64,000 bases of DNA from Clostridioides difficile (GTDB lineage Bacteria > Bacillota > Clostridia > Peptostreptococcales > Peptostreptococcaceae), in assembly GCF_900243075.1 (NCBI RefSeq), contig NZ_OEZH01000101.1:1-64000 (forward strand), given 5' to 3'. The notes under the pieces were generated by a model. It worked only from the letters and a program-made list of their open reading frames with translations, searched no databases and was not told where the DNA came from. Position 1 is the first letter of the stretch, and each line of letters opens with the position of its first letter. The translations under genes and the position numbers were made by a program. Of the stretch, positions 38,443-56,933 are shown one piece after another.

Positions 38443-39588
38443 TTATTTTGCGGTATATCCAGCTTTAACTAAAGTTTCAACTGCTAAATCCCCTTTAGCT
38501 TCATTTACTAAAACTATCGGACCTGTACAACCCATACCACTTTCAGCATAGATTCCATTTTTCCATAACTCAGACACTGCATCTTCTAAATCCATTATAT
38601 CAACACCAGCTATTTGACGAGTAACAACTTCTTTATCTGGCATTTTAACTTCTACTTTCTCAGTTTTAACTTCTTTTTTAGTAAGAGATACTATAATATC
38701 ATCAAATTTTGCTTTTTTAACCTTTGCAAATTCATTTCTTGCAACATTACTTATATCTCCCTTTACAACATCATAAGCATATTTTAACGCATTTGCTACT
38801 ACTGGAGAACCTGATGCTCTTGATACTATAAGTACCTTTCTATCATAGTCTTCTCCAACCCCAGGACCATATCCAAATCCTTGAGCTTCATAATCCCCAC
38901 CTGTAGTATATGAAGAGAATACTTTCATAAATATATTTCCAGATAACGTATCAGTAACCATAACATCAGGTGCACCCACAAGTAAATCATTACCTCTCAT
39001 TACACATCCACCATCTGCTCTAATTGAATCAGCAAATTCCATATCATATCCATTATCTTTTAATTCTTTTAAACATTTCTCAACTTGTCTTGCTCCATCA
39101 ACATTAAGTATTCCAACTTTTGGGCACTTATTACCCATTGATTTTGCTGTAGCAATACCATAAATAGCGTTTCTTACCATTGCTTCTATTCTATTAGTGG
39201 CACTTGTCCCTGTTGTTGTTGCAAGTATCATTTCTTTTCCTTTTGCTGGAGTTATTACTCTACCTACTGTAGACACTCCTATTGGAAAATTGTAATGCAT
39301 AGTAACACAAGCATCAATATATCCTGAATCTAATAATTCTTCCATTTTTGCATGCATTTCTTTTTCATCATTAACTTCAACCACTTCAAGGTCAGTTTCC
39401 ACCTTTGGTCCAATAAGTACTATATCAAATAAATTAGATTTTGCTAATTGTGCACCATTAACCATGTTCTCTACACCATGTTCACTTCCAAGTGTAGTCA
39501 CACCAATTTTTACTTTCTTGCCAAATTCGCCGCTTTCTATTGCATTAGCTACTTCTAAGAATACATCTGCGATTACTTTTTTTGACAT
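38443..39588 (-). CDS. grdD: glycine reductase complex component C, subunit alpha
   Basis: PlsX-like subunit of protein C, 381 aa, which takes the carboxymethyl group from protein A and forms acetyl phosphate. The C-terminal GMGCTGPIVLVNEAK contains a conserved Cys (C354). N-terminal half has GVTTLGSEHGVENMVNGAQLA and EMILATTTGTSATNRIEAMVRNAIYGIA. Last gene of grdX-trxB-trxA-grdE-grdA-grdB-grdC-grdD, 10 bases after grdC. Confidence 0.94.
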   Translation of the reverse strand: MSKKVIADVFLEVANAIESGEFGKKVKIGVTTLGSEHGVENMVNGAQLAKSNLFDIVLIGPKVETDLEVVEVNDEKEMHAKMEELLDSGYIDACVTMHYNFPIGVSTVGRVITPAKGKEMILATTTGTSATNRIEAMVRNAIYGIATAKSMGNKCPKVGILNVDGARQVEKCLKELKDNGYDMEFADSIRADGGCVMRGNDLLVGAPDVMVTDTLSGNIFMKVFSSYTTGGDYEAQGFGYGPGVGEDYDRKVLIVSRASGSPVVANALKYAYDVVKGDISNVARNEFAKVKKAKFDDIIVSLTKKEVKTEKVEVKMPDKEVVTRQIAGVDIMDLEDAVSELWKNGIYAESGMGCTGPIVLVNEAKGDLAVETLVKAGYTAK

Positions 39589-39598
39589 ATCCTCACCC

Positions 39599-41131
39599 CT
39601 ATTCTTCTAACATATCTAATGCTAGTTTTTTCATAGATTCAGCTATTATCTTCTTAATTTCATCCTTAGATATTCCTGAAGTTTCTTCAGTAATACCTGT
39701 ATTTCTTTCAGCTATGAAAGATACTCCATCAAATAAGTTAGTCATTCTTCCTAAGAATAAGCTACCTTTTCCAACTATCATAGCTCTATTTCTATTTCCT
39801 GTAGTTAAATCATCTATTAAAAATCCTATATAAGGAGCTCCTGATGGTATATGACCTTGAGTTGGTGCCCATCCTGGTAATCCTTTATTAGAAACAAAAT
39901 CTTTTAACGCTTTCTTTTCTAAATCTCCACGCTTAACAGCAAGTGCTCCTATCATTTTGTAGTTTGCTTCTGGAACATCTCCTGCTCCTGCTGGCTTAGT
40001 TATATCTGGGTTTTGCATTTCAACTGAATATACATCAACATCTGTTATTTTTAAATTAGCTCTATCAAGACCTGAAGTTATAAGTGCTGTCATAACTGCT
40101 TGAGGTGAAGAACCAGTTCCAACAGTATGCTTACCTGTTAAATCCGTTCTTATAACTGGATTTACACCATCATTCTCAGATACAAGTACTGCAAATCCTC
40201 CAACAACATCTTCAAGTACAGGAAGACCTTTTTTAACATGGTCTTTAGCATTCATTCCAAGTTTAGCACTTGCTCCACCTGCTACTACCATTACATTTTT
40301 ATGTATTCCAGCTTTTACTAAAGCTGCTGCTTGAATTAATGCATGTGTTGGTGCTGCACAAAATCCTCTTGTGTCAGAGCCAGTTGCATTTTGAAGTCCT
40401 ACTATCTCAGCTATTGATTTAGCAAAGTTTCCTCCACCTCTTTGGTTTATATCTCCACAAGCTTCTTCTGAACACTCAATAACATAATCTATTTCAGCAG
40501 GGTCTATTTTGCTATGTCTTAGCATTTGAATAGCAGATAAAACTCCAGATGCTTTTACTACTAGATTTTCAAACATTGTATGGGCATTTAAGTTAACATC
40601 TACATCATGTGCTCTTTTTACATAACCAACGAATTTTCCATCATGGTATAATCCTTCTGCTATGTGTGTTGCTACTAATTCTTTACCTTCTTCTATATCA
40701 TCACCCTTTAATTTACCTACAAATGGTGCAATTTCAGGGTAGTTATTTTCAATTTTTGGTTTTACTTCATCAATAAATTCTTGTGATAATTTTACTAAAT
40801 CAAATGCATCACTTATTTGCATTAAAGCTATGAACTCATCTTGAGGCATTATTTCTCCAAATTTACCATTTCTAGTTCCCTCAATCTTTTGTTCACACCA
40901 TGGCATTGGTAAATCTCTTAATTCTTCTGGTCTTCTATTTCCTATATAAACTTGATTTGGCATGTAGTTAACTACATCTTCGTAACTTCTTATATGATTA
41001 CTTACTTCTTTTAAAAATTCTGAATCTGGATTTGTTGCTCTTTCAACTGTACAAGTACTTCCATTTTGCACTATCATATCTGGAGTATGAATAAGTACAT
41101 AGCCTGCCCCTTTTAAAACTGGATAAGTCAT
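39599..41131 (-). CDS. grdC: glycine reductase complex component C, subunit beta
   Basis: Thiolase/ketosynthase-III-like subunit of protein C (510 aa) that forms the Cys-bound acetyl thioester from the selenium-carboxymethyl ether. Start 41131 is chosen because GGAGGTGCACAAA precedes it and the protein begins MTYPVLKGAGYVL as in other GrdC; the reading from 41161 puts the ribosome site inside. Visible: DTRGFCAAPTHALIQAAALV (catalytic Cys region) and VVAGGASAKLGMNAKDH. A hairpin lies in the 250-base gap to grdB. Confidence 0.94.
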   Translation of the reverse strand: MTYPVLKGAGYVLIHTPDMIVQNGSTCTVERATNPDSEFLKEVSNHIRSYEDVVNYMPNQVYIGNRRPEELRDLPMPWCEQKIEGTRNGKFGEIMPQDEFIALMQISDAFDLVKLSQEFIDEVKPKIENNYPEIAPFVGKLKGDDIEEGKELVATHIAEGLYHDGKFVGYVKRAHDVDVNLNAHTMFENLVVKASGVLSAIQMLRHSKIDPAEIDYVIECSEEACGDINQRGGGNFAKSIAEIVGLQNATGSDTRGFCAAPTHALIQAAALVKAGIHKNVMVVAGGASAKLGMNAKDHVKKGLPVLEDVVGGFAVLVSENDGVNPVIRTDLTGKHTVGTGSSPQAVMTALITSGLDRANLKITDVDVYSVEMQNPDITKPAGAGDVPEANYKMIGALAVKRGDLEKKALKDFVSNKGLPGWAPTQGHIPSGAPYIGFLIDDLTTGNRNRAMIVGKGSLFLGRMTNLFDGVSFIAERNTGITEETSGISKDEIKKIIAESMKKLALDMLEE

Positions 41132-41253
41132 TTTGTGCACCTCCATAAATTTTATGAACACTTATTTTTTAATCTCATTAAAAACTCTAATTATTCTATT
41201 TTTATTATTGTATATTTGATTCTATTATTTTTTATGTATTTTGGCATTTTTTA

Positions 41254-41298
41254 AGATTTCATGAATGAATAACTCCAATTTATCCATTCACGAAATCT
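41254..41298 (-). repeat. intercistronic hairpin between grdB and grdC
   Basis: AGATTTCGTGAATG pairs with CATTCATGAAATCT (minus strand) at 13 of 14 positions. On the minus strand no T-run follows, so it should not terminate; it may stabilise or separate the upstream grdX-grdB message. The 250-base gap has no other gene. Confidence 0.6.
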
Positions 41299-41381
41299 AT
41301 ATTATTTTTTTGTGTATAGTTATTTTTTATTTTTAGTGTGTGTTTATATTTTTATCTATATAATGTATGTGTGTGTTATTT

Positions 41382-42692
41382 TTATTTTTCAAATACTGTT
41401 TGACCATCTACTTCTGTAGTTAAAGCATTTAATGCTTTTTCTACAAGGCCTCTTCTTAAGGCTTTTTCTTCTGTAGGGTCAAGTGCTGGATTTCCAAGTG
41501 GATGAGGTATTGCTATAGTTGGAACTATTCTATTAGCCCCTACTGTTAATGAAATAGGTACTACTGTACACATATGAACTACTGGAAGTCCAGTTTTTTC
41601 TATTTCTTTTACCATCGTTGCCCCGCAACGAGTACAAGTACCTCATGTAGAAGTTAAGATTACTGCATCTACACCATCAGCTACTAATGCTGCTCCAATT
41701 TCAGAAGCATATTTTTTAGAATTTGCAACAGATGTACCATTACCTACAGTTGTATAGAAAGTCTCATGTAATTTTCCAATTACACCTTCTTTTTCTAAAT
41801 CTCTAAGAACATCAACAGGTAATACTCTATCTGCATCTAAGTTTGCATACACTGGGTCATATCCACCATGTGCAGTTTCATAAGTCTCTTCTGTTAAATC
41901 CATAACTCCTGCTATAGAATAAGTTCCATATTTAGAAGCTGAAGAAGACTCTATTCTATCTGGATTTCCTTTTGGAACTATACCACCAGAAGTAACTAAA
42001 GCTATTTTGCATTTTGATAAATCTTTTACAGCTTTACTTGGGTCAACTCTATCAAAGTTTGGCATTGGGTATTCAGTTTCAAATGGTTCACCTTTTATTT
42101 TCTTAACTAACATGTCAACAGCTCTCTTAGAACCTCTGTCTTCATGGAAGTAGTTAACTCTTATTCCTCTAGCTATGTATCCTTCATCTTTAGGAGTTCC
42201 AATTTCTTCTCCATTCGCAAGTTTTACTGCAAGTTTAGCTATCTTAGGAAGTGCTTTTCTCATACCTGCTGCAGAATCAGAAGTTTCTACTACATAAACA
42301 TCCTTTTTAAACATATCTGCTCCTGGATTTTCAATATACATACCTGTTAAAGCTGGTATATTTAAAGCATCTTTTACAACTTTAGTTATTGTTCCAGCAG
42401 CAACTCCATATCTACCAGCATTAAATGCAGGACCAGCTATGAAAAGTTGTGGTTCAAAACCTTTTACCATTGATAAAACTTCTTCACTTGCACTATCAAT
42501 ATTTTCATTAAAATAGCTATCTCCACAAACTACTGTTCCAACTATTTCAATATCTTCACCTAATAATTTATCAAGTTGTAAACTTATTGGAGGTAAAGTT
42601 TCTGCCACATGTGGCTTAGTATCAGCTTTTTCTTCTCCACCTATACCAGCAAAGAACTGATTAATATAATGTACTGCTTTTAGTTTTCCCAT
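41382..42692 (-). CDS. grdB: glycine reductase component B gamma subunit (selenoprotein), with in-frame UGA
   Basis: Substrate-specific selenoprotein that activates glycine. The frame has a single in-frame TGA at 41645-41643, codon 350, which must be read as selenocysteine: TST-U-GTCTRCGATM is the GrdB signature around U350. Reading through gives 436 aa, the normal length. A stem CGTTGC-GGG-GCAACG begins 12 bases after the UGA and can serve as SECIS. Conventional gene callers break it at 41643. Start at 42692 has a GGGTGAAA ribosome site. Confidence 0.96.
41616..41645 (-). promoter_or_regulatory. SECIS-like hairpin of grdB
   Basis: Directly after the UGA at 41645-41643, CGTTGC (41630-41625), loop GGG, GCAACG (41621-41616) is a perfect 6-bp stem. 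Bacterial SECIS elements sit just downstream of the Sec codon with G residues in the apical loop, which fits. Confidence 0.75.
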
Positions 42693-42723
42693 CTCTTAGT
42701 TTCACCCCTTTTGCTTTTAGGCA

Positions 42724-43197
42724 TTAAAATTTACAAAATTCTTCTCTTATACCAGACATTTCTTCTTCTATTTCTTCAACTTCTAAAACCATTTCCATCA
42801 TACTTATTTGGTCTTCATATACACTTTCATCAAATAATGATTTTATTGGTTCCTCAACAACGTGGTAAACACTTAATCCTAAGGCAACTCCAGCAAGTGG
42901 TCCAGCGAAAGTTGGATCTCCAGCAGTTACTGTTTCGGCTGCAAGACCTGCAGCTTCGGCTTCAGCAGCACCTAGTAAAATCACAACATTTTCAGCTCCG
43001 AATTTATCAGCAGCTTCTTTAACTCTGTTTTGATTTTCTAAGTCCATAGCCCCAGCAGCTGTTCAGACAAAGCATTCTGTAGATGAGAAAACAACCTCTG
43101 CTCCTTCTACTGTTTTTACACATTCTTCTATCGCAGGTCCTGGTATACCATCACGGTCACCTATTATAAGAACCTTTTTATTACTAAGTAAACTCAT
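42724..43197 (-). CDS. grdA: glycine reductase protein A (selenoprotein), with in-frame UGA
   Basis: Small selenoprotein carrying the Se-carboxymethyl intermediate between protein B and protein C. Start ATG at 43197 with AGGAGG upstream, [17 protein letters not shown]. Codon 45 is TGA at 43065-43063: TECFV-U-TAAGAM is the GrdA signature with Cys at 42 and Sec at 45. Read through it is 157 aa, the usual size. No other stop interrupts. Directly precedes grdB by 31 bases. Confidence 0.96.
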
Positions 43198-43309
43198 AAT
43201 AATCCTCCTTATTATATTTCTAATATATTTTTTTACCTCTATAACACTTATTATAATATATCTATAATATGTTTAATTAACATTACTCAATCGTTTAATG
43301 GAATACTTT

Positions 43310-44596
43310 TTAATATCCTTTAGCAGTTAAATGACCAAATCCTGTTTCATTAGTTGCACCTGTTATAGCTTGGATTTCAACTTCAATAGTTCCATCAGCT
43401 TTTAAACTTCCATCAGAACCACCAGCTATTACATCCACTACTTCTAAATGACCAATTACTTTGTCTAGCTTAGGAAGCACTACAACTTGGTTAGCATTTC
43501 CACCTGTTACAACAGCATCAGCTCTTACATCTGCATCTGCAAGTGATTGAGAACCTCCATCACGTCCAGCATATTCATCTGTAACTATAACTGTTTTAAC
43601 ACCTTGCATTTCTATCTTCTTACAGTTCATTATAAGGTCAGTATCAGGATTTCCAAAACCTTCTTGTGAAACTATAACTGCATCTAATCCTAAATATTTA
43701 CATAATTTAGAAGTCCAGTTTGAAGATCTTTCTTTATCTGCTAGGTAAACATTTTCATTCGTTATAATTACACCTACAAAGTTTATATCTTTGCCATGTC
43801 TTGCATATAAATCTTCAACAACCCCATTATTTATGTGAACATAACTTGGGTTTTTATCACATGCAGAAACACAGTTACCACTTACAATTGCTCCGTCCAT
43901 TAATTCTGTTGGATATAATAAAGTTGGTACTATTTGTTTTGCATCTACTCCATACACATAAGTATCATGTAATAAACCTTGAGTCTGAAGCATATAAACA
44001 TATCCTACTTTTGGAAGCTCTGGATATTCTTTTATTGATTCAAGAAGAGGTTTAGTTTCATATACTGAAACTTCATCTGGAGTAAGATTTCTCGCTACTT
44101 CTCCTAAATACATTGCTGCTTTGAATCCTATCATTCTAACAGCTTTTTCATGAGCATATTGTTTTAAACCATCAATAGGTTCAGCTATTACTACTACATT
44201 ATTTAATTTAGAAAATGGAGTGTACTTAGCTCCTTCTCCAGTCATATCTATTATACCTTCTTGGAAACCTACTATTTTTCCAGTAGTTACAACAGCTACA
44301 CCTTTTAAAGCATGAGTTTTTCCTTCTCCTACAGTGTCAACTTTAGACATGATGCCTGGGAATATTCCCCCATTACCTTCAACTTTTACTCTTGGCTCAA
44401 TAACATCTTTTACAGGTGTTATTCTTACGCTTTCACCTGGACGAGCTAATTCTATATCTATAGATTTGATATGCTCATCTCCACCAATTTCTTGTAGCAT
44501 CTCTTGCTTATTGATGAATAATACTCCATCTTTTACTTCTGTTACATCACCAAATTGAATATCTTTTATAAAGATTTTCCCTAATTCAAGACGCAT
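43310..44596 (-). CDS. grdE: glycine reductase component B, alpha/beta precursor
   Basis: Proprotein of 428 aa that cleaves itself into two subunits of protein B, the new N-terminus becoming a pyruvoyl group which binds glycine as a Schiff base. The cleavage Cys is C242 in VSGNCVSACDK, the same number as in the Eubacterium acidaminophilum protein as I recall it. Full length, between trxA and grdA. The gap of 261 bases to trxA has no feature recognised. Confidence 0.95.
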   Translation of the reverse strand: MRLELGKIFIKDIQFGDVTEVKDGVLFINKQEMLQEIGGDEHIKSIDIELARPGESVRITPVKDVIEPRVKVEGNGGIFPGIMSKVDTVGEGKTHALKGVAVVTTGKIVGFQEGIIDMTGEGAKYTPFSKLNNVVVIAEPIDGLKQYAHEKAVRMIGFKAAMYLGEVARNLTPDEVSVYETKPLLESIKEYPELPKVGYVYMLQTQGLLHDTYVYGVDAKQIVPTLLYPTELMDGAIVSGNCVSACDKNPSYVHINNGVVEDLYARHGKDINFVGVIITNENVYLADKERSSNWTSKLCKYLGLDAVIVSQEGFGNPDTDLIMNCKKIEMQGVKTVIVTDEYAGRDGGSQSLADADVRADAVVTGGNANQVVVLPKLDKVIGHLEVVDVIAGGSDGSLKADGTIEVEIQAITGATNETGFGHLTAKGY

Positions 44597-44857
44597 ACTT
44601 GCACCTCCTGTTATTTAATTTGTGTATATGCATTTGAGTTTTTCTCAAAATTATATCATTTTACAACTTATCTTAAAGATATTTTTATATTCTGTTTTTA
44701 TGTTTCAAATATTTATTTCATTAATAAAAATATTTATTGTAAAAAAATTATTTTATCTAAAATTATTTTTTTAACAAACTTAGACATAAAAACACTTTTC
44801 TTTTATCTTCAGACTAAAATAAATTTTTTCTTTTGATGTTAATACTTTATCAATGTA

Positions 44858-45175
44858 TTAAAGATATTTTTTAATCATTTCTTCTATATTAGAAACTGTA
44901 GCATCATCCTTAGTAACTTCATCTACTTTTTCCCCATCTTTGTATATAGCCATAGTTGGAAGACCTAATACTTTTTGTTTTATAGCTAATCTTCTAGCTT
45001 TTGTTGTATCCATCTTACAGAATTTTATCTTATCTCCATAAGTCTCAGCTAATTTATGAACATCTGGCATTAAAGCTTTACAAGGCTCACAACCTTCACT
45101 CCAAAAATCAACAAATACAAAACCTTCTGCATTTAAAACTTCTTCTTCAAATGTAGCCTTATCTAAATCTAACAT
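44858..45175 (-). CDS. trxA: thioredoxin of the glycine reductase operon
   Basis: 105-aa thioredoxin with active site [10 protein letters not shown] (C-E-P-C rather than the common C-G-P-C). It reduces protein A and B, passing electrons from TrxB. The C-E-P-C motif is seen in the thioredoxins of glycine-reducing clostridia. Second gene after grdX and trxB. Confidence 0.95.
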
Positions 45176-45242
45176 TTTCTTATTCCCCCTTGAAATTTTT
45201 ATTTTATTTTAAATATTATTTATTGAATTTAATTTACAGACT

Positions 45243-46190
45243 CTAGTTTCCAAATTTTTCGTCAATATATTTCTCAGCTACTATAGATGCAATTGCTCCA
45301 TCATTAGTTGCAGTTACAACCTGTCTTAGAGTTTTAGATCTGCAATCTCCTGCTGCAAATACTCCTGGTATATTAGTTTTCATATCTTCATCAGTTATTA
45401 TATAACCTTTTTCATCCATATCAACTTTGCCTTTGAATAAATCAGTTTGAGCATCTAATCCAACGAAAACAAATACTCCCATTGTTCCATCTTCTTCATC
45501 TGCAAAGTATTCATGAGTTTCTCCAGTAACTTTGTTTTTGAATACAACTGACTCTAATATTCCATCACCTTTGATTTCTTCTATTACTGTATCTAATAAA
45601 AATTCTATCTTTGGATTAGCTTTTGCTTTTTCTTCAACACTTTTAGCACATCTAAATCCTTGTCTTCTATGTACAATTGTTACTTTTCTAGCAAATTTAG
45701 TTAAATACATCGCTTCTTCTAATGCACTATCTCCTCCGCCTACAACAAATACTTCAAAATCTTCAAAGAAATCTGCATCACAAGTTGCACAGTATGAAAC
45801 CCCTTTACCAGTAAGTTCTTTTTCTCCAGGACAACCAATTTTTCTTGGAGTTGCTCCTGTTCCTATTATTACTGCTTTTGCTCTATATTCTGCTTTTTCC
45901 CCTTTTAAAACTTTTATATCTCCATCTAGTTCAGTATCTACAATGTTGTCTCTTAGCATCTCTGCTCCAAACTCTTTACATTGTTCAACCATTCTAGCTA
46001 TTAAACTTGGTCCTGTTGCATTTGGAACTGACCCTGGATAATTTGCAATCTCATGTGTTATTACAATTTGTCCACCAGTCTTGTCTTTTTCTAGGATTAG
46101 AGTTTTCAACTTTGCTCTTGCTCCATAAAGACCTGCTGCAAGCCCTGCTGGTCCTGAACCAATTATTACTAAGTCATACACATTTTCCAT
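45243..46190 (-). CDS. trxB: thioredoxin reductase
   Basis: FAD-dependent NADPH:thioredoxin reductase, 315 aa. FAD loop IIGSGPAGLAAGLYGARA, active site SYCATCDADFFE (C-A-T-C), NADPH loop VVGGGDSALEEAMYL, and C-terminal GVFAAGDCRSKT. Supplies electrons via TrxA to glycine reductase. A 95-base gap separates it from grdX. Confidence 0.96.
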   Translation of the reverse strand: MENVYDLVIIGSGPAGLAAGLYGARAKLKTLILEKDKTGGQIVITHEIANYPGSVPNATGPSLIARMVEQCKEFGAEMLRDNIVDTELDGDIKVLKGEKAEYRAKAVIIGTGATPRKIGCPGEKELTGKGVSYCATCDADFFEDFEVFVVGGGDSALEEAMYLTKFARKVTIVHRRQGFRCAKSVEEKAKANPKIEFLLDTVIEEIKGDGILESVVFKNKVTGETHEYFADEEDGTMGVFVFVGLDAQTDLFKGKVDMDEKGYIITDEDMKTNIPGVFAAGDCRSKTLRQVVTATNDGAIASIVAEKYIDEKFGN

Positions 46191-46285
46191 TTTGACTTAT
46201 CCTCCCCAATTAAATTTCTCATTTTATTTAATATTAAATTAGATTTAATATTTAGGCTGTTTTAACAACTTTTTAACAAACTTAT

Positions 46286-46657
46286 TTATTCATACTGCAT
46301 TCTTTGTATTGTATTATAGAATATATCATAATCAATTACTCTAAAGTCATCTTGAACACTTTCTGTCCATTTTGGAGTCTTTTTATTATTCTGAAATTTA
46401 CTTGCAGTGATGATTGCTTCTTCAATTAAGGTCAAAGAGTTTATATCCAAACGATTTCCTCTCTTTAGTATAACAGTTCTGTAAGGTGTTTCATTTGGTT
46501 TTACACTCCCATAGAGTGGATGAGATAAAAGTTCATACCCTTCATGTATCAAATCTCTACTTGCTTCTAAGATACCAATATAAGTTGTGTCTTTAAACAA
46601 AACTTCTCTGTCTTGAACTTCTTCTTTTACTTTTGGATTATTTGTAATTATTATCAT
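46286..46657 (-). CDS. grdX: GrdX protein
   Basis: 123 aa, first gene of the operon, conserved in glycine-reductase operons but without an established function. Begins MIIITNNPKVKEEV; GAGAG lies 8 bases before this ATG at 46657. Longer readings from 46777 run through the riboswitch terminator and were rejected. C-terminal VIDYDIFYNTIQRM. Confidence 0.9.
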   Translation of the reverse strand: MIIITNNPKVKEEVQDREVLFKDTTYIGILEASRDLIHEGYELLSHPLYGSVKPNETPYRTVILKRGNRLDINSLTLIEEAIITASKFQNNKKTPKWTESVQDDFRVIDYDIFYNTIQRMQYE

Positions 46658-46699
46658 TTTTTTACTCTCTTTCAAACTTTTATTTATTACTTGATAAAT

Positions 46700-46740
46700 A
46701 AAAAACAGGAAAAACAAATCTCCCAATTTGCCTTCCCTGT
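46700..46740 (-). terminator. riboswitch-controlled terminator before grdX
   Basis: Minus strand ACAGGGAAGGCAAAT (46740-46726), loop of 6, ATTTGTTTTTCCTGT (46719-46705), then TTTTT. All 15 pairs form, three of them G-U. It sits between the glycine aptamer and grdX, so transcription into the operon needs antitermination. Confidence 0.9.
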
Positions 46741-46752
46741 TAAAATCATTTT

Positions 46753-46870
46753 CAGAGCCCCGTCCAAGTACAGTCATCTTTACCTGAGAATTTCATCTAA
46801 TCCTTTGGGTAAATAAGATTAAATTTGTCCCTTCGGTCGCTTTTTTATAAAGCAGTCTCCCATACTCTTC
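46753..46870 (-). ncRNA. glycine riboswitch upstream of grdX
   Basis: The minus strand has the conserved glycine-aptamer blocks in order: GGGAGACTGC, GCGACCGAAGGGACAAA, a long P3 stem, then TTCTCAGGTAAAGATGACTG and GGACGG. CCGAAGG and TCTCAGGTAAA are the signature blocks. Only one clear aptamer copy is visible. A terminator follows. Glycine should prevent termination and turn on glycine reductase. Confidence 0.9.
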
Positions 46871-46961
46871 AGCCGGATTATTATTTTTTTCAGAAAATTG
46901 AAAATTAAGCAATTTATCCTTTGTTTTTTATAAATAGCTTTTTTCTATCTCTGTTGACTTA

Positions 46962-50211: not shown

Positions 50212-50258
50212 TCATGTAAAAAACTAAAAATATTTTTTATGTTTAAATATATTTAATG

Positions 50259-50304
50259 AGAGTGTCTCAAAATGAACTTTTTAGTTTATGAGACACTCTT
50301 TTTT
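50259..50304 (+). terminator. terminator after the HAD phosphatase gene
   Basis: AGAGTGTCTCA (50259) pairs with TGAGACACTCT (ending 50299), with additional inner pairs, then TTTTTTG. Classic rho-independent form on the plus strand. Confidence 0.85.
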
Positions 50305-50341
50305 GTATGAAATCAAATATATTTTCGTCATTTAAACAATG

Positions 50342-50376
50342 AAAAAGAGGCTTATCTCTATTTTGAGACAGCCCCA
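50342..50376 (-). terminator. terminator of the sao operon
   Basis: Minus strand GGGGCTGTCTC pairs with GAGATAAGCCTC (one bulge, one G-U next to it) around AAAATA, then TTTTT. It is 50 bases after the full-length saoL stop at 50428, but about 210 bases after the UGA in saoL, which supports read-through. Confidence 0.8.
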
Positions 50377-50427
50377 TATCTATAACTTTTATCTAAAGTT
50401 CATTTTTAGTTTTTCATATATGTATAT

Positions 50428-51069
50428 CTATAATAATACTTTTTGTTTGAGTTTAAATATTTTATATGATTCTACTATTGCTTCATTAAGATCTAAGCAA
50501 TATATATCTTCATCATCTGATAATCCCGCTTCATTTGTCCAAGCATCAAAATCACTCTTCGTCCAGAAGAAATTCATTATATTTCAGCAGCTAGCAGCCC
50601 AATTTGAATGCTTATCAAGATTTATATGAAGCACTCTTAAGTTCGGATTATTCACATACTCAATCTTTTCATTTTTTATAACTATTTCTATTTCTTTACC
50701 TGTAGCACTACAAATAGAGTTTATTCTTACATCTTGGTTAAATGTGCAAGAAGTTCCTATAGCATCTATAGCACACATTGCACTAAAACTTCGATTATCT
50801 CTCAAGGTTACTTTATGATTAGTTGGCAATGCTGATACAGGATATATAAAATTTATACTATCTCCATCAACAACCATTATATTTTTATCAATAAAATATT
50901 GTAGTGTATTTTTCATATATTGTTTTTCTGTCTTCAACTTTTTACTTATATATTCAGTCGCTTCTTGAAGCGTAATACTAGAACCCTTATCTATTATCAT
51001 ATCCATAATAGAGATTCTTATTTTTTGTTGTGTGTTATCCAAACTATTATATTTTTCTATTTGACTCAT
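50428..51069 (-). CDS. saoL: MerB-like organomercurial-lyase family selenoprotein, in-frame UGA
   Basis: Relative of alkylmercury lyase MerB, which cleaves C-Hg bonds. 213 aa with codon 162 (50586-50584, TGA) as selenocysteine, versus about 212 aa for MerB. N-terminal winged-helix-like domain; catalytic domain with MCAIDAIG (C99, D102; MerB C96 and D99), C120 (MerB C117), then C161-U162 followed by NIMNFFWTKSDFDAW, as in MerB C159 and the NFF segment. All catalytic positions are kept, and a Sec is added beside the second Cys. A stem TCTTC-TGGAC-GAAGA starts 13 bases past the UGA. Last gene of the operon. Name recalled from memory. Confidence 0.9.
50556..50586 (-). promoter_or_regulatory. SECIS-like hairpin of saoL
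   Basis: After the UGA (50586-50584) comes TCTTC (50570-50566), loop TGGAC, GAAGA (50560-50556), a perfect 5-bp stem with GG in the loop. Confidence 0.65.
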
Positions 51070-51081
51070 ACCTACTCCTCT

Positions 51082-51834
51082 TTAAACCTCATAACACTTT
51101 GATAAAGTATCAGTTAATTTATTTTTGTACTCTTCATATTTTTGACTTCCTCTAATCCTAGGTCTTGGAATATCTATATTTATATCATCAAGAATTCTTC
51201 CTTTATCTCTCGACATTACTATAACTCTATCACTCATATATACAGCTTCATCAACATCATGAGTTACCATTAAAGCAGTTATTTTCTTTTTTATCCATAT
51301 TCTTTCTAGTTCTTCTTGTAAGTTTTGTCTCATTTGAAAATCCACAGCTCCTAATGGTTCATCCATTAGTAATACCTCAGGATTACATGCTAAAGCTCTT
51401 ATCATGGCTACCCTTTGTTTCATTCCTCCTGATAATTGATGAGGAAACAGGCTTTCTTTTCCTTTCAAGTCTGACATAACCAAAAGTTCTTCTAACATTT
51501 CTTCTCTCTTTTCCTTTGGTATTTTCTGCTGTTTCATAGGAAATAGGACATTGCCTCTTATAGTTTTCCAAGGAAATAAAGCATAATTTTGAAATATAAA
51601 AGCTCTATCTATTCCCGGTTTTTTAACTTTTTTATCATTTATAAAAACGTCTCCACTTTCTGACTTTTGAAACCCACCTATTATAGTAAGTAAAGTTGTT
51701 TTTCCACAACCTGATGGTCCTAAAAGACAAACAAATTGTCCATTATCTATATCCATACTTATATCTTCTAAAACCTTTGTATGTACTTTATTATTTACAA
51801 ATGTCTTATTTATACCTCTTACACTTAGCTTCAT
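51082..51834 (-). CDS. saoA: ABC transporter ATP-binding protein of the sao operon
   Basis: 250 aa with the start at 51834; TAATG overlaps the permease stop and GGAGG lies 11 bases before. Walker A GPSGCGKTTLL, signature LSGGMKQRVAMIRAL, Walker B VLLMDEPLGAVD, and H-loop VTHDVDEAVYMSD. Similar to the nitrate/sulfonate/taurine (SsuB) type ATPases, as the permease is SsuC-like. Couples to SaoP and the two binding proteins. A reading 18 bases longer (51852) is also open. Confidence 0.93.
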   Translation of the reverse strand: MKLSVRGINKTFVNNKVHTKVLEDISMDIDNGQFVCLLGPSGCGKTTLLTIIGGFQKSESGDVFINDKKVKKPGIDRAFIFQNYALFPWKTIRGNVLFPMKQQKIPKEKREEMLEELLVMSDLKGKESLFPHQLSGGMKQRVAMIRALACNPEVLLMDEPLGAVDFQMRQNLQEELERIWIKKKITALMVTHDVDEAVYMSDRVIVMSRDKGRILDDINIDIPRPRIRGSQKYEEYKNKLTDTLSKCYEV

Positions 51835-52640
51835 TAATCTGCAAACCTCCATCTACAAAGGATTTTGTTTATAAACTTTAATACCCTATCTATTATAAAT
51901 CCTATTAAAGCTGCAAATATCATAAGTCCAATTAATACATCTGTATGCATTAATGTTTGGGCTTGTACCATTGAGTAACCGAGACCGGCACTCGTAGCTA
52001 TAAACTCAGCTCAGATAACAGACATCCAGCCTGTACTTATAGCAATTCTCGAACCAGTTAGTATATCTGGAAGAGACGCTGGAACGATTACATTTGTAAA
52101 TATCACAATTGATGATGCTCCCATACTTCTAGCTGCATTATAGTAATCTTTTGATATCGCTCTTACTCCCTGAATAGTGTTTAAAATTATAGGAAAAACC
52201 CCTGAAAAAGCTATTAAAAATATTGTTGGCCCATCTCCTATACCAAACCACACTATAGTAAGAGGAACCCATGCCATTATAGGAACTTGTCTTACAGAAT
52301 CTACTACTGGGGATAAAACTCTTTCAAAAGTTTTAGAAAATCCCATAATAAATCCTATTGGAAGTCCAAACAATAGTGCATACATAAATCCTTTAAGCAC
52401 TCTCTGTAATGTTATAAAAAGATTCGTAACTGTCTCTGCATCTGTTACACAATAGAAGAAACCTTTTATTACATCTACTGGCATAGGAAGTAACAAAGAA
52501 CTCCCTATATCTTTTGCTGCAAAATGCCAAACTAAAAATATAATAACTAATAGTATTATTTTATATAAAATATCCATACTACCATCAGATTTTTTCTTAG
52601 TTAATCTATCACTTTTATCTTTAGAAATTTTAATTTCCAA
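51834..52640 (-). CDS. saoP: ABC transporter permease selenoprotein, in-frame UGA
   Basis: SsuC/TauC-type permease, 268 aa with codon 210 (52013-52011, TGA) as selenocysteine. TTG start at 52640 with GGAGG 10 bases before it. Six membrane spans; the EAA loop is YYNAARSMGASS (about residues 166-177). Without read-through the protein stops right after GWMSVI; read through it continues AEFIATSAGLGYSM and the final TM helices to WRFAD, as in full-length homologues. The Sec replaces the Val/Ala found before AEL in SsuC. Overlaps saoB's end and saoA's start, so tightly coupled. Confidence 0.92.
51980..52013 (-). promoter_or_regulatory. SECIS-like hairpin of saoP
   Basis: CGAG (51994-51991), loop TGCCGGT, CTCG (51983-51980), 16 bases after the UGA. 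Short stem with GG in the loop; weaker than in the other Sec genes. Confidence 0.5.
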
Positions 52641-53398
52641 TTGTTTATTTCCTCCATATCTATATTTCTTATATTCTTGTACTCTTTTAATGCTTTCTTA
52701 AATGTAGCTTTATTATTTAAATCATCAACACTTTTATTGTAAAGTTTTATAAAATCACTATACGCTTTACTTTTTTTAAACTCTTTACTTACAACTAATA
52801 CATAGGTATCATAATCTCCTAATTCGGTCGTAGATTTTCTTTTACCTTCTGACCCAATCGACTTTATACAATCTATTACAACACCATCTACTAAATTACT
52901 TTCTAATCCATATGCTAGTGCAGTCCCTAATAAGGAAGCTATTTCCACATTCTTGTAGTATTTTTTCACTAATTCTGACTGGTAATCTCTATTTTGAGTA
53001 ACTCCCATTTTCTTAGGATTATTGTCACTTAATAGAAATATATCTGAATTTTGAACTACTGTACCAACAATTTCAAATCCACTATTTTTATTTACATACT
53101 GTTTTGCAGCATCTTTACATATGATTGCTATATCTATTTCCTCTGAACTCAGAGCCCACTGCATTGTACTTGCTCAGCAATCATTAATTGTAAAAATATC
53201 CATTATATCGCTTACTTTTATATTTTCAAAGTAATCTCTATTTTCCATATAATTTATTACAAAACCAGAGGTATCATCGGATACCCCTATTCTTAATTTT
53301 CCTTTTATTTCTTCTTTATCTTCAAAATTAAAAAATATTATAAATATACTTCCCAAAATAACGATAAAAAGTATTATTATATTTTTTATATTATCCAT
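52601..53398 (-). CDS. saoB: ABC substrate-binding selenoprotein, in-frame UGA
   Basis: 265 aa with codon 75 (53176-53174, TGA) as selenocysteine. N-terminal hydrophobic anchor (about residues 5-23, no lipobox Cys), then a periplasmic-binding-like fold: LRIGVSDDTSGFVINYME, TINDC-U-ASTMQWALSSEEIDIAIICK. The C74-U75 pair replaces the substrate-lining region at the end of the first lobe. Second lobe starts near GFEIVGTVVQ. Remaining Cys: ICKDAA and DCIKSIG. Start ATG 53398 is 4 bases after the previous gene's stop. Role: binds an organometal or soft metal for SaoP (inference). Confidence 0.92.
53141..53176 (-). promoter_or_regulatory. SECIS-like hairpin of saoB
   Basis: CTCTG-AGTT-CAGAG (53154-53141), a perfect stem 19 bases after the UGA at 53176-53174. 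Confidence 0.6.
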
Positions 53399-53402
53399 TT
53401 AT

Positions 53403-54494
53403 TTATAATACCTTTGCTTTCCAATCTTCATAGCTCATACCTTCAGGAAACTCTGGATTAACTTTTTCTTTTATAAATTTGTCAAAATCATCAGCTCCAC
53501 AAGAATCTAATAAACTTGTATCAATTGTATCTTCATATTTAGGTATATCATCTAATGCCTTTAAATCCTTATACATTTGTAAATTGTTTTTATACTCTTC
53601 TCCTGTAACTTTCCAAGTAAGAGTTCTACCCTCTCCAACTGTCTTTTTATAAATAGTTCTAAGTGCAACTTCTTCTTCTACATTATAATATTTTGCAAAT
53701 ATTTTAGCTGCTTCAGCTGGATTTGTATATATATATTCTATTGCTTTTGTATGGGCTAAAACCAATTTTTTTGCTAAGTCTGGATGCTCTTTTATAAAAT
53801 TTTTATTTAATGAAAATGAACAACAGTTATATTCTTTACCATTAGCTTTTTCTTTATATTGAGTAGAAGCTATTATTTTTCCTGCACCATCATTTTCAGC
53901 TACAGAACCCCAAGGGTCACAAGATGTAAAGGCTTGTATTTTCCCAGTTTTAAGAGCTAAATATTTATCTTTATCTGAATCCATATTTACAACTTCATAT
54001 TTTGATGGGTCAGTTGGTATACCTGTTTCTGGACCATAATCACTTGTCCATAAAAAATCACTCATATCTGTTGCAATTTTTTTACCTATCAAATCTTTAG
54101 GTTCTTTTATGTCTTTTGAAACTATTAAATATTCAGAACCACCAGTATGATTATTAGCTGCTATTGTTATTGGTGAACCCTTAGGTATAGCTCCCACTAG
54201 ACCTTTAGTTCCTATATAACCAGCATCCATTTTCCCTGCTGCCATAGCTTCAGGAACTTTACCATTTCCAACAGTTTTTACATTAAGACCTAAGTCCTTA
54301 TATATTCCTGCCGCTTCTGCTACTGGTCCAGCAGTCATATGGTCACAATTATAATACCCTACTGTTATCGTATAATCATCCTTTCCAGCCTTTGCTTCTT
54401 CCTTTTCTTTTGGTTTACTACTACATCCTGTTAGTATAGATGCTCCCATTACACTAACTAATATCAATGCTTGAATCTTCTTAGATACTCTCAT
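53403..54494 (-). CDS. second ABC substrate-binding lipoprotein of the sao operon
   Basis: SsuA/NMT1-type binding lipoprotein, 363 aa. Signal peptide with lipobox LTGC (C24). Family segments: DYTITVGYYNCDHMTAGPVAEAAGIYKDLG, VAEND and LTWKVTGEEYKNN. Cys are concentrated in putative ligand positions: C50 in YYNCDH, C192, C224-C225 in YNCCSF, and C332. Thus this protein, without any Sec, also has a thiol-rich pocket. It and saoB appear to give one ABC transporter two binding proteins. I recall a name SaoX for such a gene but am not sure. Confidence 0.85.
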   Translation of the reverse strand: MRVSKKIQALILVSVMGASILTGCSSKPKEKEEAKAGKDDYTITVGYYNCDHMTAGPVAEAAGIYKDLGLNVKTVGNGKVPEAMAAGKMDAGYIGTKGLVGAIPKGSPITIAANNHTGGSEYLIVSKDIKEPKDLIGKKIATDMSDFLWTSDYGPETGIPTDPSKYEVVNMDSDKDKYLALKTGKIQAFTSCDPWGSVAENDGAGKIIASTQYKEKANGKEYNCCSFSLNKNFIKEHPDLAKKLVLAHTKAIEYIYTNPAEAAKIFAKYYNVEEEVALRTIYKKTVGEGRTLTWKVTGEEYKNNLQMYKDLKALDDIPKYEDTIDTSLLDSCGADDFDKFIKEKVNPEFPEGMSYEDWKAKVL

Positions 54495-54528
54495 CTAAAA
54501 TTCCCACCTTTATGTATTATTTTTATTT

Positions 54529-54987
54529 TTAGCAACATTTGTCCATATCTTCACCAAATAAGTCAACAAACTTCTTATCTTCTACTCTGTAAATAGCATA
54601 TCCTACATTACCATTTTTAGAACCTGAAACTATTACTTCTATTGGCTGCTTATCGTCAATATTTTTAAAGGTTATAGTTTGATTCTCTATAGGTGCTGGT
54701 ATTGGTTTTGTTATATAATGGCTATTTTTGTTAGAAACTACAACTACCATTTCATTTGAACTATTACTTTTTTTATATATAACTACTAAATCTTTTTTCC
54801 CATCGTCATTTAAGTCTTCTTCAGCACAAGTTATTATATCTTCTTTATAATTTTTTCTAAAGTATTCTAATGTTTCTTTACTTACATTTGGAATAGAGGC
54901 ATCTTCTTTAAGATTATCATCCAATATTTTTGATAAAACTATTAATGCAACTACTATACAGGATATTATAACTATCTTTTTAAGCAT
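54529..54987 (-). CDS. saoC: small membrane-anchored protein ending Cys-Cys
   Basis: 152 aa. N-terminal hydrophobic anchor (MLKKIVIISCIVVALIVLS), then a polar extracytoplasmic domain with NDDGKKDLVVIYKKS, which resembles FG-GAP/VCBS-like acidic calcium loops. The protein ends in DMDKCC followed by a TAA stop, so two cysteines are the C-terminal residues. A vicinal thiol pair at a free C-terminus can bind Hg or As or take part in redox relay. Start overlaps the end of saoE by 8 bases. Confidence 0.85.
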   Translation of the reverse strand: MLKKIVIISCIVVALIVLSKILDDNLKEDASIPNVSKETLEYFRKNYKEDIITCAEEDLNDDGKKDLVVIYKKSNSSNEMVVVVSNKNSHYITKPIPAPIENQTITFKNIDDKQPIEVIVSGSKNGNVGYAIYRVEDKKFVDLFGEDMDKCC

Positions 54988-56065
54988 GATTTCCTATGAC
55001 CTCTTTCATCTTTGGTATTATTGATTTAAGTGCAAATAAAATAATCAAAATCGTACACACATATTCAAAACTATTAGGTATATTTAACATTAGTTTATTT
55101 GCCAACTGTATAGAAGAATTTGTTGTATCTAAATTTACTGAATTGTTGTCCACTAAAAGTAGATTTGTTATATATCCAATTATTATTGAAGATAGTGTCA
55201 AAGTTACTGAATATATAATAACAGTTCTTTTTCCAATAAGTTTAAACATACTTATAAGTTCTGGTAAGTTTGTAGCTGCTCCAGCTATTAAAAATGTTAT
55301 CGCTATCCCAGGAGCTGCTCCACTTGCAACAAGAGCTGCTATAAATGGGATATGTCCTACAGCACATACATACATGATGCAGGCAAGTATTGCTATACTT
55401 CCAAGAGATAGTAAACCTGGGTTACCTAAATATTTTTGAATTATACTATCTGGAAAAATTGTTGTTATAAAACCTGCAAAAATCATTCCCATTACTACAT
55501 ATTTACTAATAGTAAGAGCTAACTCTCCAAAAGACCATTTAAGACCATCAATCATATTTTCTATAAAACTTCTTTTTTCTTCTTCTAATTCTATTACGTC
55601 TTCATCTGAATCATTATGCAAAGATAATTCTTCTTTCCCAAAACAATTTCCTAAAAATCCTACTAAAAACGGCACTAAAAAACCAGATATTAGATAAATG
55701 ATTGTAACTTTAGGTCCTAAAAGACCCAAACAAAGAACTACAGCTATTGGATTTATTATTGGAGTTGATGTCATAAAAGCAAGTACTGGCCCTAAGTATG
55801 CTCCTGAATAATACATACTTATACCTAATGGTATTACCCCACAACTGCAAATTGGTAAAAACATTCCTGAAATAGTACTTTTAATCAACGAAGAAAATTT
55901 CTTATTTCCAAGTTGTTTTTGAAACCTTTTGGGAGTTAAAACATTATGAAGGACACCTGCCAATATAAAACTTATCATAAGCCATCCTGATGCTCCATTC
56001 AATGTAACTATAGAAGCTACTATAGTCTCTTTAACTCCGTTTAAAACAATTTCTAATATATTCAT
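54980..56065 (-). CDS. saoE: ArsP/DUF318-type permease, predicted efflux
   Basis: Multi-span permease, 361 aa. Visible: MFLPICSCGVIPLGISMYYSGAYLGPVLAFMTSTPIINPIA (given in part: the CSCGVIPL motif has C73 and C75) and LIAGAATNLPELISMFKLIG. The family includes ArsP, which exports trivalent organoarsenicals, and other metal-related permeases. A central hydrophilic loop (about residues 145-170) separates two halves. AGGAGC before the ATG. In this operon it would export the cleaved organic or metal product (inference). Confidence 0.88.
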   Translation of the reverse strand: MNILEIVLNGVKETIVASIVTLNGASGWLMISFILAGVLHNVLTPKRFQKQLGNKKFSSLIKSTISGMFLPICSCGVIPLGISMYYSGAYLGPVLAFMTSTPIINPIAVVLCLGLLGPKVTIIYLISGFLVPFLVGFLGNCFGKEELSLHNDSDEDVIELEEEKRSFIENMIDGLKWSFGELALTISKYVVMGMIFAGFITTIFPDSIIQKYLGNPGLLSLGSIAILACIMYVCAVGHIPFIAALVASGAAPGIAITFLIAGAATNLPELISMFKLIGKRTVIIYSVTLTLSSIIIGYITNLLLVDNNSVNLDTTNSSIQLANKLMLNIPNSFEYVCTILIILFALKSIIPKMKEVIGNHA

Positions 56066-56082
56066 TTTGCTGCTCCTAATTT

Positions 56083-56340
56083 TTAACTATTATTTATAGC
56101 TTCTACTATTGCCTTTTCAATTGTATCTTTATTTAATCTATCATATTTCTTTTTTTGATTTATTATTAAAGTTCCTTTTGTTATAATTCCATATTTTTTT
56201 ACATATGAAAAATCTTTACCTGCTTGATATAATTTTATTTCCAATTTGTCAGTATACTTTTCTGACATTTTTTTTATAAACACTCCATGCTCATCACAAG
56301 ACGGTCAAGTATTTATAAATTCAACTAAAATTTTAGACAT
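56083..56340 (-). CDS. saoT: thioredoxin-like selenoprotein (UxxC), in-frame UGA
   Basis: 85 aa with codon 12 (56307-56305, TGA) as selenocysteine. Starts MSKILVEFINT-U-PSCDEHGVF, a glutaredoxin/thioredoxin-type beta strand followed by U-P-S-C: the Sec takes the place of the N-terminal Cys of the CxxC motif. Without read-through the only open frame begins at 56283 and lacks the motif. It ends IEKAIVEAINNS. Located between saoD and saoE. Likely reduces a Sec or Cys site in SaoB, SaoP or SaoL. Confidence 0.9.
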
Positions 56341-56429
56341 TTGTTCATCCCCTACTCTAAATAATTTTCCTTTTACTTAAAATAATCCACAGAAAATAAA
56401 TTTTTCTATGGATTGTATGCTTTACTATT

Positions 56430-56762
56430 TTATAATGTTATAACTTGGTCTACACCTGCACTACCTAAACAAGCATATAAGTTTGGGAAACATCCAATTG
56501 TAGCTCCATCAACCAAATTATTCTCTATACCTCTCTCTATAGCACACTGATCACAAGCCATTATTATCATATCTGTTTTTTCATGTAATTTACTTAGTTT
56601 TTCTCCTACAGGATTACCTTTAGATAAAAATAAGGTATTATCCATAAAGAAAAACATCCCTAAAACATCTACTCCGTGAGTTCCTTGTTCCAATTGTGGT
56701 ATTATCATTTTGTCTAGAATTTTATGTGTATTAGTACTATTAAAAATATACGCTACTTTCAT
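56430..56762 (-). CDS. saoD: DsrE-like protein, first gene of the sao operon
   Basis: 110 aa, DsrE/F-like alpha-beta fold: MKVAYIFNSTNTHKIL, IIMACDQCAIERGI, GATIGCFPNLYACLG. Four Cys (C70, C73, C91, C98), two as a CxxC. DsrE-type proteins shuttle sulfur or thiol groups on a conserved Cys. GGGGG ribosome site 8 bases before the ATG. Confidence 0.88.
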   Translation of the reverse strand: MKVAYIFNSTNTHKILDKMIIPQLEQGTHGVDVLGMFFFMDNTLFLSKGNPVGEKLSKLHEKTDMIIMACDQCAIERGIENNLVDGATIGCFPNLYACLGSAGVDQVITL

Positions 56763-56816
56763 TTTTATTCCCCCTATATTTTTTACATTTATACAAAATT
56801 TTACATATACAAGTAT

Positions 56817-56846
56817 ATTATAAGTTTATTCTTATTTATCTGTAAA
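56817..56846 (-). promoter_or_regulatory. promoter of the sao operon
   Basis: Minus strand TTTACA (56846-56841), 18-base spacer, TATAAT (56822-56817), 54 bases before the saoD ATG. No operator palindrome was recognised near it and no regulator gene lies in the operon. Confidence 0.75.
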
Positions 56847-56933
56847 ATAGATAATAACTATATCATCAAAATACAACATAGCATTTATCTATATATATTT
56901 AATTATTTTTTAATTTTCGTTAATTATAGTAAA

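Follow-up and report, generated by a model that had tools for sequence, protein, structure and literature searches.

A nine-gene SAO operon with four predicted selenoproteins in Clostridioides difficile and the selenium-linked genes near its relatives

SAO genes and their in-frame TGA codons

The window analyzed here is a whole stretch of 64,000 nucleotides (positions 1 to 64,000 of contig NZ_OEZH01000101.1) from Clostridioides difficile. Nine open reading frames (ORFs), all co-directional on the minus strand and overlapping or separated by short gaps, were found at 50428-56762, in agreement with an earlier reading of the sequence alone. With TGA read through, each of the nine products scored above the curated cut-off of its own, different NCBIfam equivalog of the SAO system, a name that reportedly stands for selenocysteine-assisted organometallic and was described from C. 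difficile by Haft and Gwadz in 2023 (J Bacteriol 205:e0025922, doi 10.1128/jb.00259-22). A Pfam search agreed (DsrE, ArsP_1, NMT1, BPD_transp_1, ABC_tran, and MerB). The Sao identification and protein families offered by the sequence-only reading held. The source genome is assigned to Clostridioides because its SaoX shares 99% identity with SaoX of C. difficile CD160.

The gene saoD (56430-56762) encodes a DsrE-related protein of 110 amino acids (NF040732, 189.8 bits, cut-off 169), and saoT (56083-56340) a thioredoxin-like predicted selenoprotein of 85 amino acids with the motif U12-P-S-C15 (NF040730, 127.6 bits, cut-off 65). They are followed by saoE (54980-56065), which encodes an ArsP/SO_0444-type permease of 361 amino acids (NF040736, 560.8 bits, cut-off 325), and saoC (54529-54987), which encodes a membrane-anchored protein of 152 amino acids ending in Cys-Cys-COOH (NF040734, 186.7 bits, cut-off 80). 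Two substrate-binding proteins come next, the lipoprotein SaoX of the SsuA/TauA class (53403-54494, 363 amino acids; NF040735, 500.7 bits, cut-off 300) and the membrane-anchored, predicted selenoprotein SaoB (52601-53398, 265 amino acids, D73-C74-U75; NF040727, 253.8 bits, cut-off 140). An ABC transporter is represented by the permease SaoP, also a predicted selenoprotein (51834-52640, 268 amino acids, W-M-S-V-I-U210-A-E-F; NF040733, 431 bits, cut-off 295), and the ATPase SaoA (51082-51852, 256 amino acids; NF040729, 436.2 bits, cut-off 360). The start of saoP is uncertain, being either the TTG at 52640 or, in the same frame, an ATG near 52577, the point at which the family profile starts. The last gene, saoL (50428-51069), encodes a MerB-like predicted selenoprotein of 213 amino acids with C99, D102, C161, and U162 (NF040728, 222 bits, cut-off 140).

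Exactly one internal TGA was present in each of saoT, saoB, saoP, and saoL, and each of these ORFs ended in TAA or TAG. The sequence-only reading took the four codons for selenocysteine (Sec), a proposal that homologues lacking both Cys and Sec at these positions would contradict. All on the minus strand, they correspond to Sec12 of SaoT (56305-56307), Sec75 of SaoB (53174-53176), Sec210 of SaoP (52011-52013), and Sec162 of SaoL (50584-50586). The comparison set consisted of 79 SAO loci (L032-L110) from a scan of GTDB genomes, distributed over seven phyla (Bacillota, Thermodesulfobacteriota, Actinomycetota, Fusobacteriota, Synergistota, Spirochaetota, and Chloroflexota). We found Cys or Sec in 100% of the aligned copies: 70/70 at SaoT column 12 (53 Cys, 17 Sec), 72/72 at SaoB column 75 (50 Cys, 22 Sec), 73/73 at SaoP column 210 (29 Cys, 44 Sec), and 44/44 at SaoL column 162 (3 Cys, 41 Sec). 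The SaoP tree requires at least six switches between Sec and Cys, three of them forced by well-supported branches, and SaoT carries Sec at residue 12 or residue 14, never at both together. Since these columns hold Cys or Sec only, the TGA codons are not due to chance, and the operon is predicted to make four selenoproteins.

Alternatively, the four TGA codons would be true stops in genes that have decayed or split. The failure of both Rfam and folding to reveal a selenocysteine insertion sequence (SECIS) fits this explanation. However, the Cys/Sec-only columns comprise 70-73 copies each (44 for saoL) from seven phyla, the frame stays open past each TGA, and the genome encodes SelB (G000:C160, 348.6 bits, cut-off 242). 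We regard termination at these codons as refuted by the alignments, with next to no probability left to it. Two metagenome-assembled genomes (MAGs), one of Lachnospiraceae (L103) and one of Clostridiales (L105), have TGA at the Sec position of SaoP, and SelB was found in neither. Both MAGs are likely incomplete, because matches at the level of EF-Tu were missing from them as well.

The operon in the window belongs to a system that had been described before, and it comes from the genus in which that system was first described. Publication of SAO by Haft and Gwadz in 2023 is cited in PMC13188914, which counts SaoL, SaoC, SaoX, SaoB, SaoP, and SaoT as families of selenoproteins, refers to an operon in which six genes encode selenoproteins, and states that the precise roles of Sao proteins need more study. 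Our operon shares with that system all nine families and the Sec motifs of SaoT (UxxC), SaoB (CUxxT), SaoL (CU), and SaoP; it differs in having Sec in just four of the six families that can be selenoproteins, with Cys in SaoX and SaoC. Because SAO was published in 2023, novelty is low; what we add is the quantitative Cys/Sec test over 79 loci, an empty site, the lack of MerA, and a measure of how strongly double-cubane and selenium genes are associated with SAO. SAO operons are among the selenoprotein-richest known, and this one comes from a lineage of human gut pathogens.

Conserved thiol residues and a proposed route from capture to export

Near-invariant Cys was found in every non-ATPase SAO component of the 79-locus set. 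Cys70, Cys73, and Cys91 of SaoD (52/52) and Cys73, Cys75, and Cys234 of SaoE (73/73) were invariant, as were C74, C/U75, and C94 of SaoB; C151 and C152 ended SaoC in 69/69 copies, and C50, C192, C224, and C225 of SaoX were near-invariant. An AlphaFold model of SaoX (pLDDT 87.7) matched TauA/SsuA folds, and the model of SaoB (pLDDT 87.2) had an SsuA/TauA-type fold. Secondary structure places C50 of SaoX in the loop that follows the first strand, with C192 and C224-225 where strands end; as such positions normally do in this fold, they would face the binding cleft. Additional saoX variation was seen among the loci. In a Tissierellia MAG (L046), saoX occurs twice, and one of the copies has Sec in place of the invariant Cys50; saoX is also duplicated in L036, L044, and L055 and split in two pieces in L054.

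The binding proteins, permease, and ATPase share homology and fold with the SsuABC/TauABC and NrtABCD/CmpABCD importers, but SAO has two binding proteins with near-invariant Cys/Sec. Alignment showed SaoP to be homologous to the permeases NrtB and CmpB; its residue 210, the only invariant Cys/Sec, stands in place of their Ala, before the conserved Glu of the permease helix. SaoE resembles ArsP/SO_0444 permeases (177 bits against PF03773 ArsP_1) but forms an equivalog of its own, with an invariant CxC and a third Cys. SaoL scored 90.4 bits against PF03243 MerB, and its Cys99, Asp102, and Cys161 align with Cys96, Asp99, and Cys159 of MerB, which are the catalytic residues of that organomercurial lyase (PMC4525700). 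In contrast to MerB, SaoL has Sec162 at the position of Cys160, lacks a MerA partner, and fell far below the NCBIfam MerB cut-offs (53.8 versus 193 bits and 49.7 versus 200 bits).

The locus is a bona fide SAO operon, and we consider it reasonably likely that it serves to capture, import, and cleave an organic form of a soft element, such as mercury, arsenic, or selenium, and to export the element. In the simplest scheme, Cys/Sec ligand exchange would take place at each step from capture through import and cleavage to export. Outside the membrane, SaoX and SaoB would bind the organic compound, whose soft element has an affinity for thiols, via their invariant Cys and Cys-Sec sites, and SaoP/SaoA, an ABC importer of the TauABC/NrtABC type with Sec/Cys in its conserved permease helix, would carry it inward. 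In the cytosol, SaoL may cleave or strip the compound at its MerB-like Cys99/Asp102/Cys161 center with the adjacent Sec. SaoT and SaoD may donate electrons or act as carriers for the released element or chalcogen. SaoE would then export the element, and SaoC could offer its Cys-Cys tail. We infer the direction of transport, the order of steps, the cleavage, and the substrate.

Several points weigh against this assignment. SaoL is present in 43 of the 79 loci, and since about half of the loci do without it, MerB-type cleavage cannot account for all of the chemistry of SAO. It would be odd, too, for a detoxification system to bring a toxic organometal into the cell. No Rfam SECIS match was found inside the operon, and folding 3' of the four TGA codons did not outperform shuffles (z -0.9 to +0.8); bacterial SECIS elements are weakly conserved. 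Organometal handling is a plausible, published hypothesis rather than a demonstrated function.

Ordinary mer-type organomercury resistance, in which SaoL would cleave the C-Hg bond and Hg(II) would be converted to Hg(0), agrees with SaoL being a MerB homologue with its catalytic residues retained. Fifty SAO genomes, with the source genome included for MerA, were tested for MerA, HgcA, and SelB. MerA above the cut-off was found in 0/50, the neighborhood of the operon contained no merA, and HgcA was found in just 7/50. Based on the MerA and HgcA counts, a plain mercury operon or canonical organomercury resistance is unlikely, and we give the mer-type route very little probability.

Selenium-linked neighbors and alternative purposes of SAO

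A double-cubane-cluster reductase (NF040772) was located within 3 kb of the SAO core in 35 of the 79 loci, covering six of the seven phyla, where fewer than one adjacency in 79 was expected by chance (an estimate based on about two such genes per 3 Mb genome). The activase of this reductase was near the core in 14/79 loci and a molybdopterin oxidoreductase in 12/79. The flanks of 8/79 loci held Se_S_carrier (PF11823, DUF3343), and those of at least three (L060, L102, and L103) held TIGR01977/SclA-like cysteine desulfurases of the Sec-lyase group. Besides two Se/S carriers, little else was recurrent in a systematic Pfam/NCBIfam scan of operon-mates. The model NF040772 is numbered beside the SAO models, and the SAO authors may have been aware of the association. 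Part of it was already drawn by Kountz & Balskus, who located genes for Sao and double-cubane-cluster protein (DCCP) within clusters for methyl-selenide and described transfer of the Se methyl by Mlp2 in vitro (PMC10418091). Moreover, 2-hydroxyglutaryl-CoA-dehydratase-type proteins, activase, and DUF3343 have been linked to Se use (Lin et al., PMC5322559), and double-cubane proteins are able to reduce small molecules in vitro, their physiological role being unclear (PMC11971306).

SAO was also associated with genomes that use Sec. SelB scored above the cut-off in 45/50 SAO genomes, compared to 61/393 genomes of the class; a 46th SAO genome (G076) has SelB in pieces, and in the other 4/50, all MAGs, SelB was not detected. 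Five SaoX-positive genomes were present in the 393-genome class sample, and all five had SelB. Even among loci with Cys in place of every Sec, 8/10 were in SelB genomes.

One explanation of these associations is that SAO captures organoselenium, such as methylated selenides, for Se salvage or detoxification, together with the double-cubane reductase, its activase, Se/S carriers, and Sec-lyase-type desulfurases. The neighbors and SelB counts above, the methyl-selenide clusters with Mlp2 (PMC10418091), the published ties of the reductase-type proteins to Se use (PMC5322559), and an importer that belongs to the organosulfur class all point this way. However, MerB chemistry is better suited to a C-metal than to a C-Se bond, a metal or metalloid is what an ArsP-type exporter would fit, and gene context gives association only. 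The double-cubane reductase and its activase (DCCP/DCCPR) adjoin SAO in other loci and lie outside the operon here: in the source genome, the double-cubane and activase genes are on another contig, beside adenosine deaminase and without adjoining Se genes. They form a general family that occurs in genomes without SAO as well, and those adjacent to SAO do not make up one clade (8 label changes on the tree led us to reject this). We hold organoselenium capture as a tentative possibility. The stronger statement that SAO is not a mercury system but belongs to anaerobic Se metabolism, with a Cys/Sec-lined organoselenium importer and cleavage working with an ATP-driven double-cubane reductase and Se carriers, appears rather improbable to us.

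SAO might also protect the selenoproteome by clearing soft electrophiles, such as methylmercury and organotin, that poison selenoenzymes such as glycine reductase. This would explain why SAO, even all-Cys SAO, is confined to Sec-using genomes. Consistent with it are the SelB association (45/50 versus 61/393, and 8/10 all-Cys loci), the Sec-bearing grd genes in the same window, and, from general chemistry, the tight binding of Hg and Sn by selenols. On the other side, the evidence is indirect throughout, shared anaerobic ecology explains the SelB association too, and the four MAGs mentioned above carry SAO without detected SelB. Protection of this kind is conceivable, and we hold it, too, as a tentative possibility.

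Given the double-cubane reductase, the activase, the Se/S carrier, the Sec-lyase-group desulfurase, and the confinement to SelB genomes, a role of SAO in selenium chemistry or in protecting selenoproteins is no less plausible than organometal handling, and a serious competitor to the mercury reading. An organometal function is plausible, and the selenium-linked readings deserve equal attention. The map of conserved Cys/Sec, combined with the reductase and Se-carrier neighborhood, leads to organics of Hg, As, Sn, or Se as candidate substrates, and the neighborhood links SAO to an orphan double-cubane reductase.

A DMSO-reductase-family molybdopterin oxidoreductase was observed about 0.4 kb or less from the SAO core in L046, L049, L051, L062, L064, L068, L080, L082, and L110, loci that are mostly without saoL. 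Replacement of SaoL by a molybdopterin oxidoreductase or by the double-cubane reductase was not significant (Fisher p 0.57 and 0.53). The presence of SaoL did not significantly predict Sec in the other SAO proteins (p 0.31). In the family of the window, SaoB was present in 24/24 SaoL genomes; in the single genome that has SaoB but not SaoL (G024), a double-cubane reductase lies within the cluster.

Limits of the SAO segment and other features of the window

In two congeneric genomes (G007 and G010), nadC runs directly into a HAD hydrolase gene and the SAO segment is absent. By blastn, these regions aligned only outside it, up to 50211 and again from 56878 (G007) or 57028 (G010), giving a segment of 50212-56878. 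Because the two congeners lack exactly the nadC-HAD interval, the segment is a unit that was gained or lost as a whole, and SAO genes cluster as one unit in the 79 loci as well. No plasmid or phage carrying the cassette was found at megablast level, and PADLOC gave no match.

Upstream of saoD, the promoter proposed by the sequence-only reading was recovered on the minus strand as a candidate sigma-70 site at 56817-56846 (TTTACA-18-TATAAT), with 11 of 12 consensus positions matched, but promoter-like sites overall were no more common than in shuffles (44 versus 43.4). For the terminator that it placed at 50342-50376, a hairpin followed by a T-run on the minus strand at 50338-50384 proved real by energy (-15.7 kcal/mol, z -3.1), although the consensus scan did not list it. 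A second strong hairpin (50255-50302, z -5.1) lies between saoL and the convergent HAD gene, and is probably the terminator of the latter.

The grd (glycine reductase) operon occupies 38443-46927 on the minus strand, with a glycine riboswitch at 46761-46872. It contributes two more selenoproteins to the window, encoded by grdA (42727-43272, CFVU) and grdB (41385-42695, TSTUGTC), and an Rfam SECIS_4 match was located within grdB at 41605-41642.

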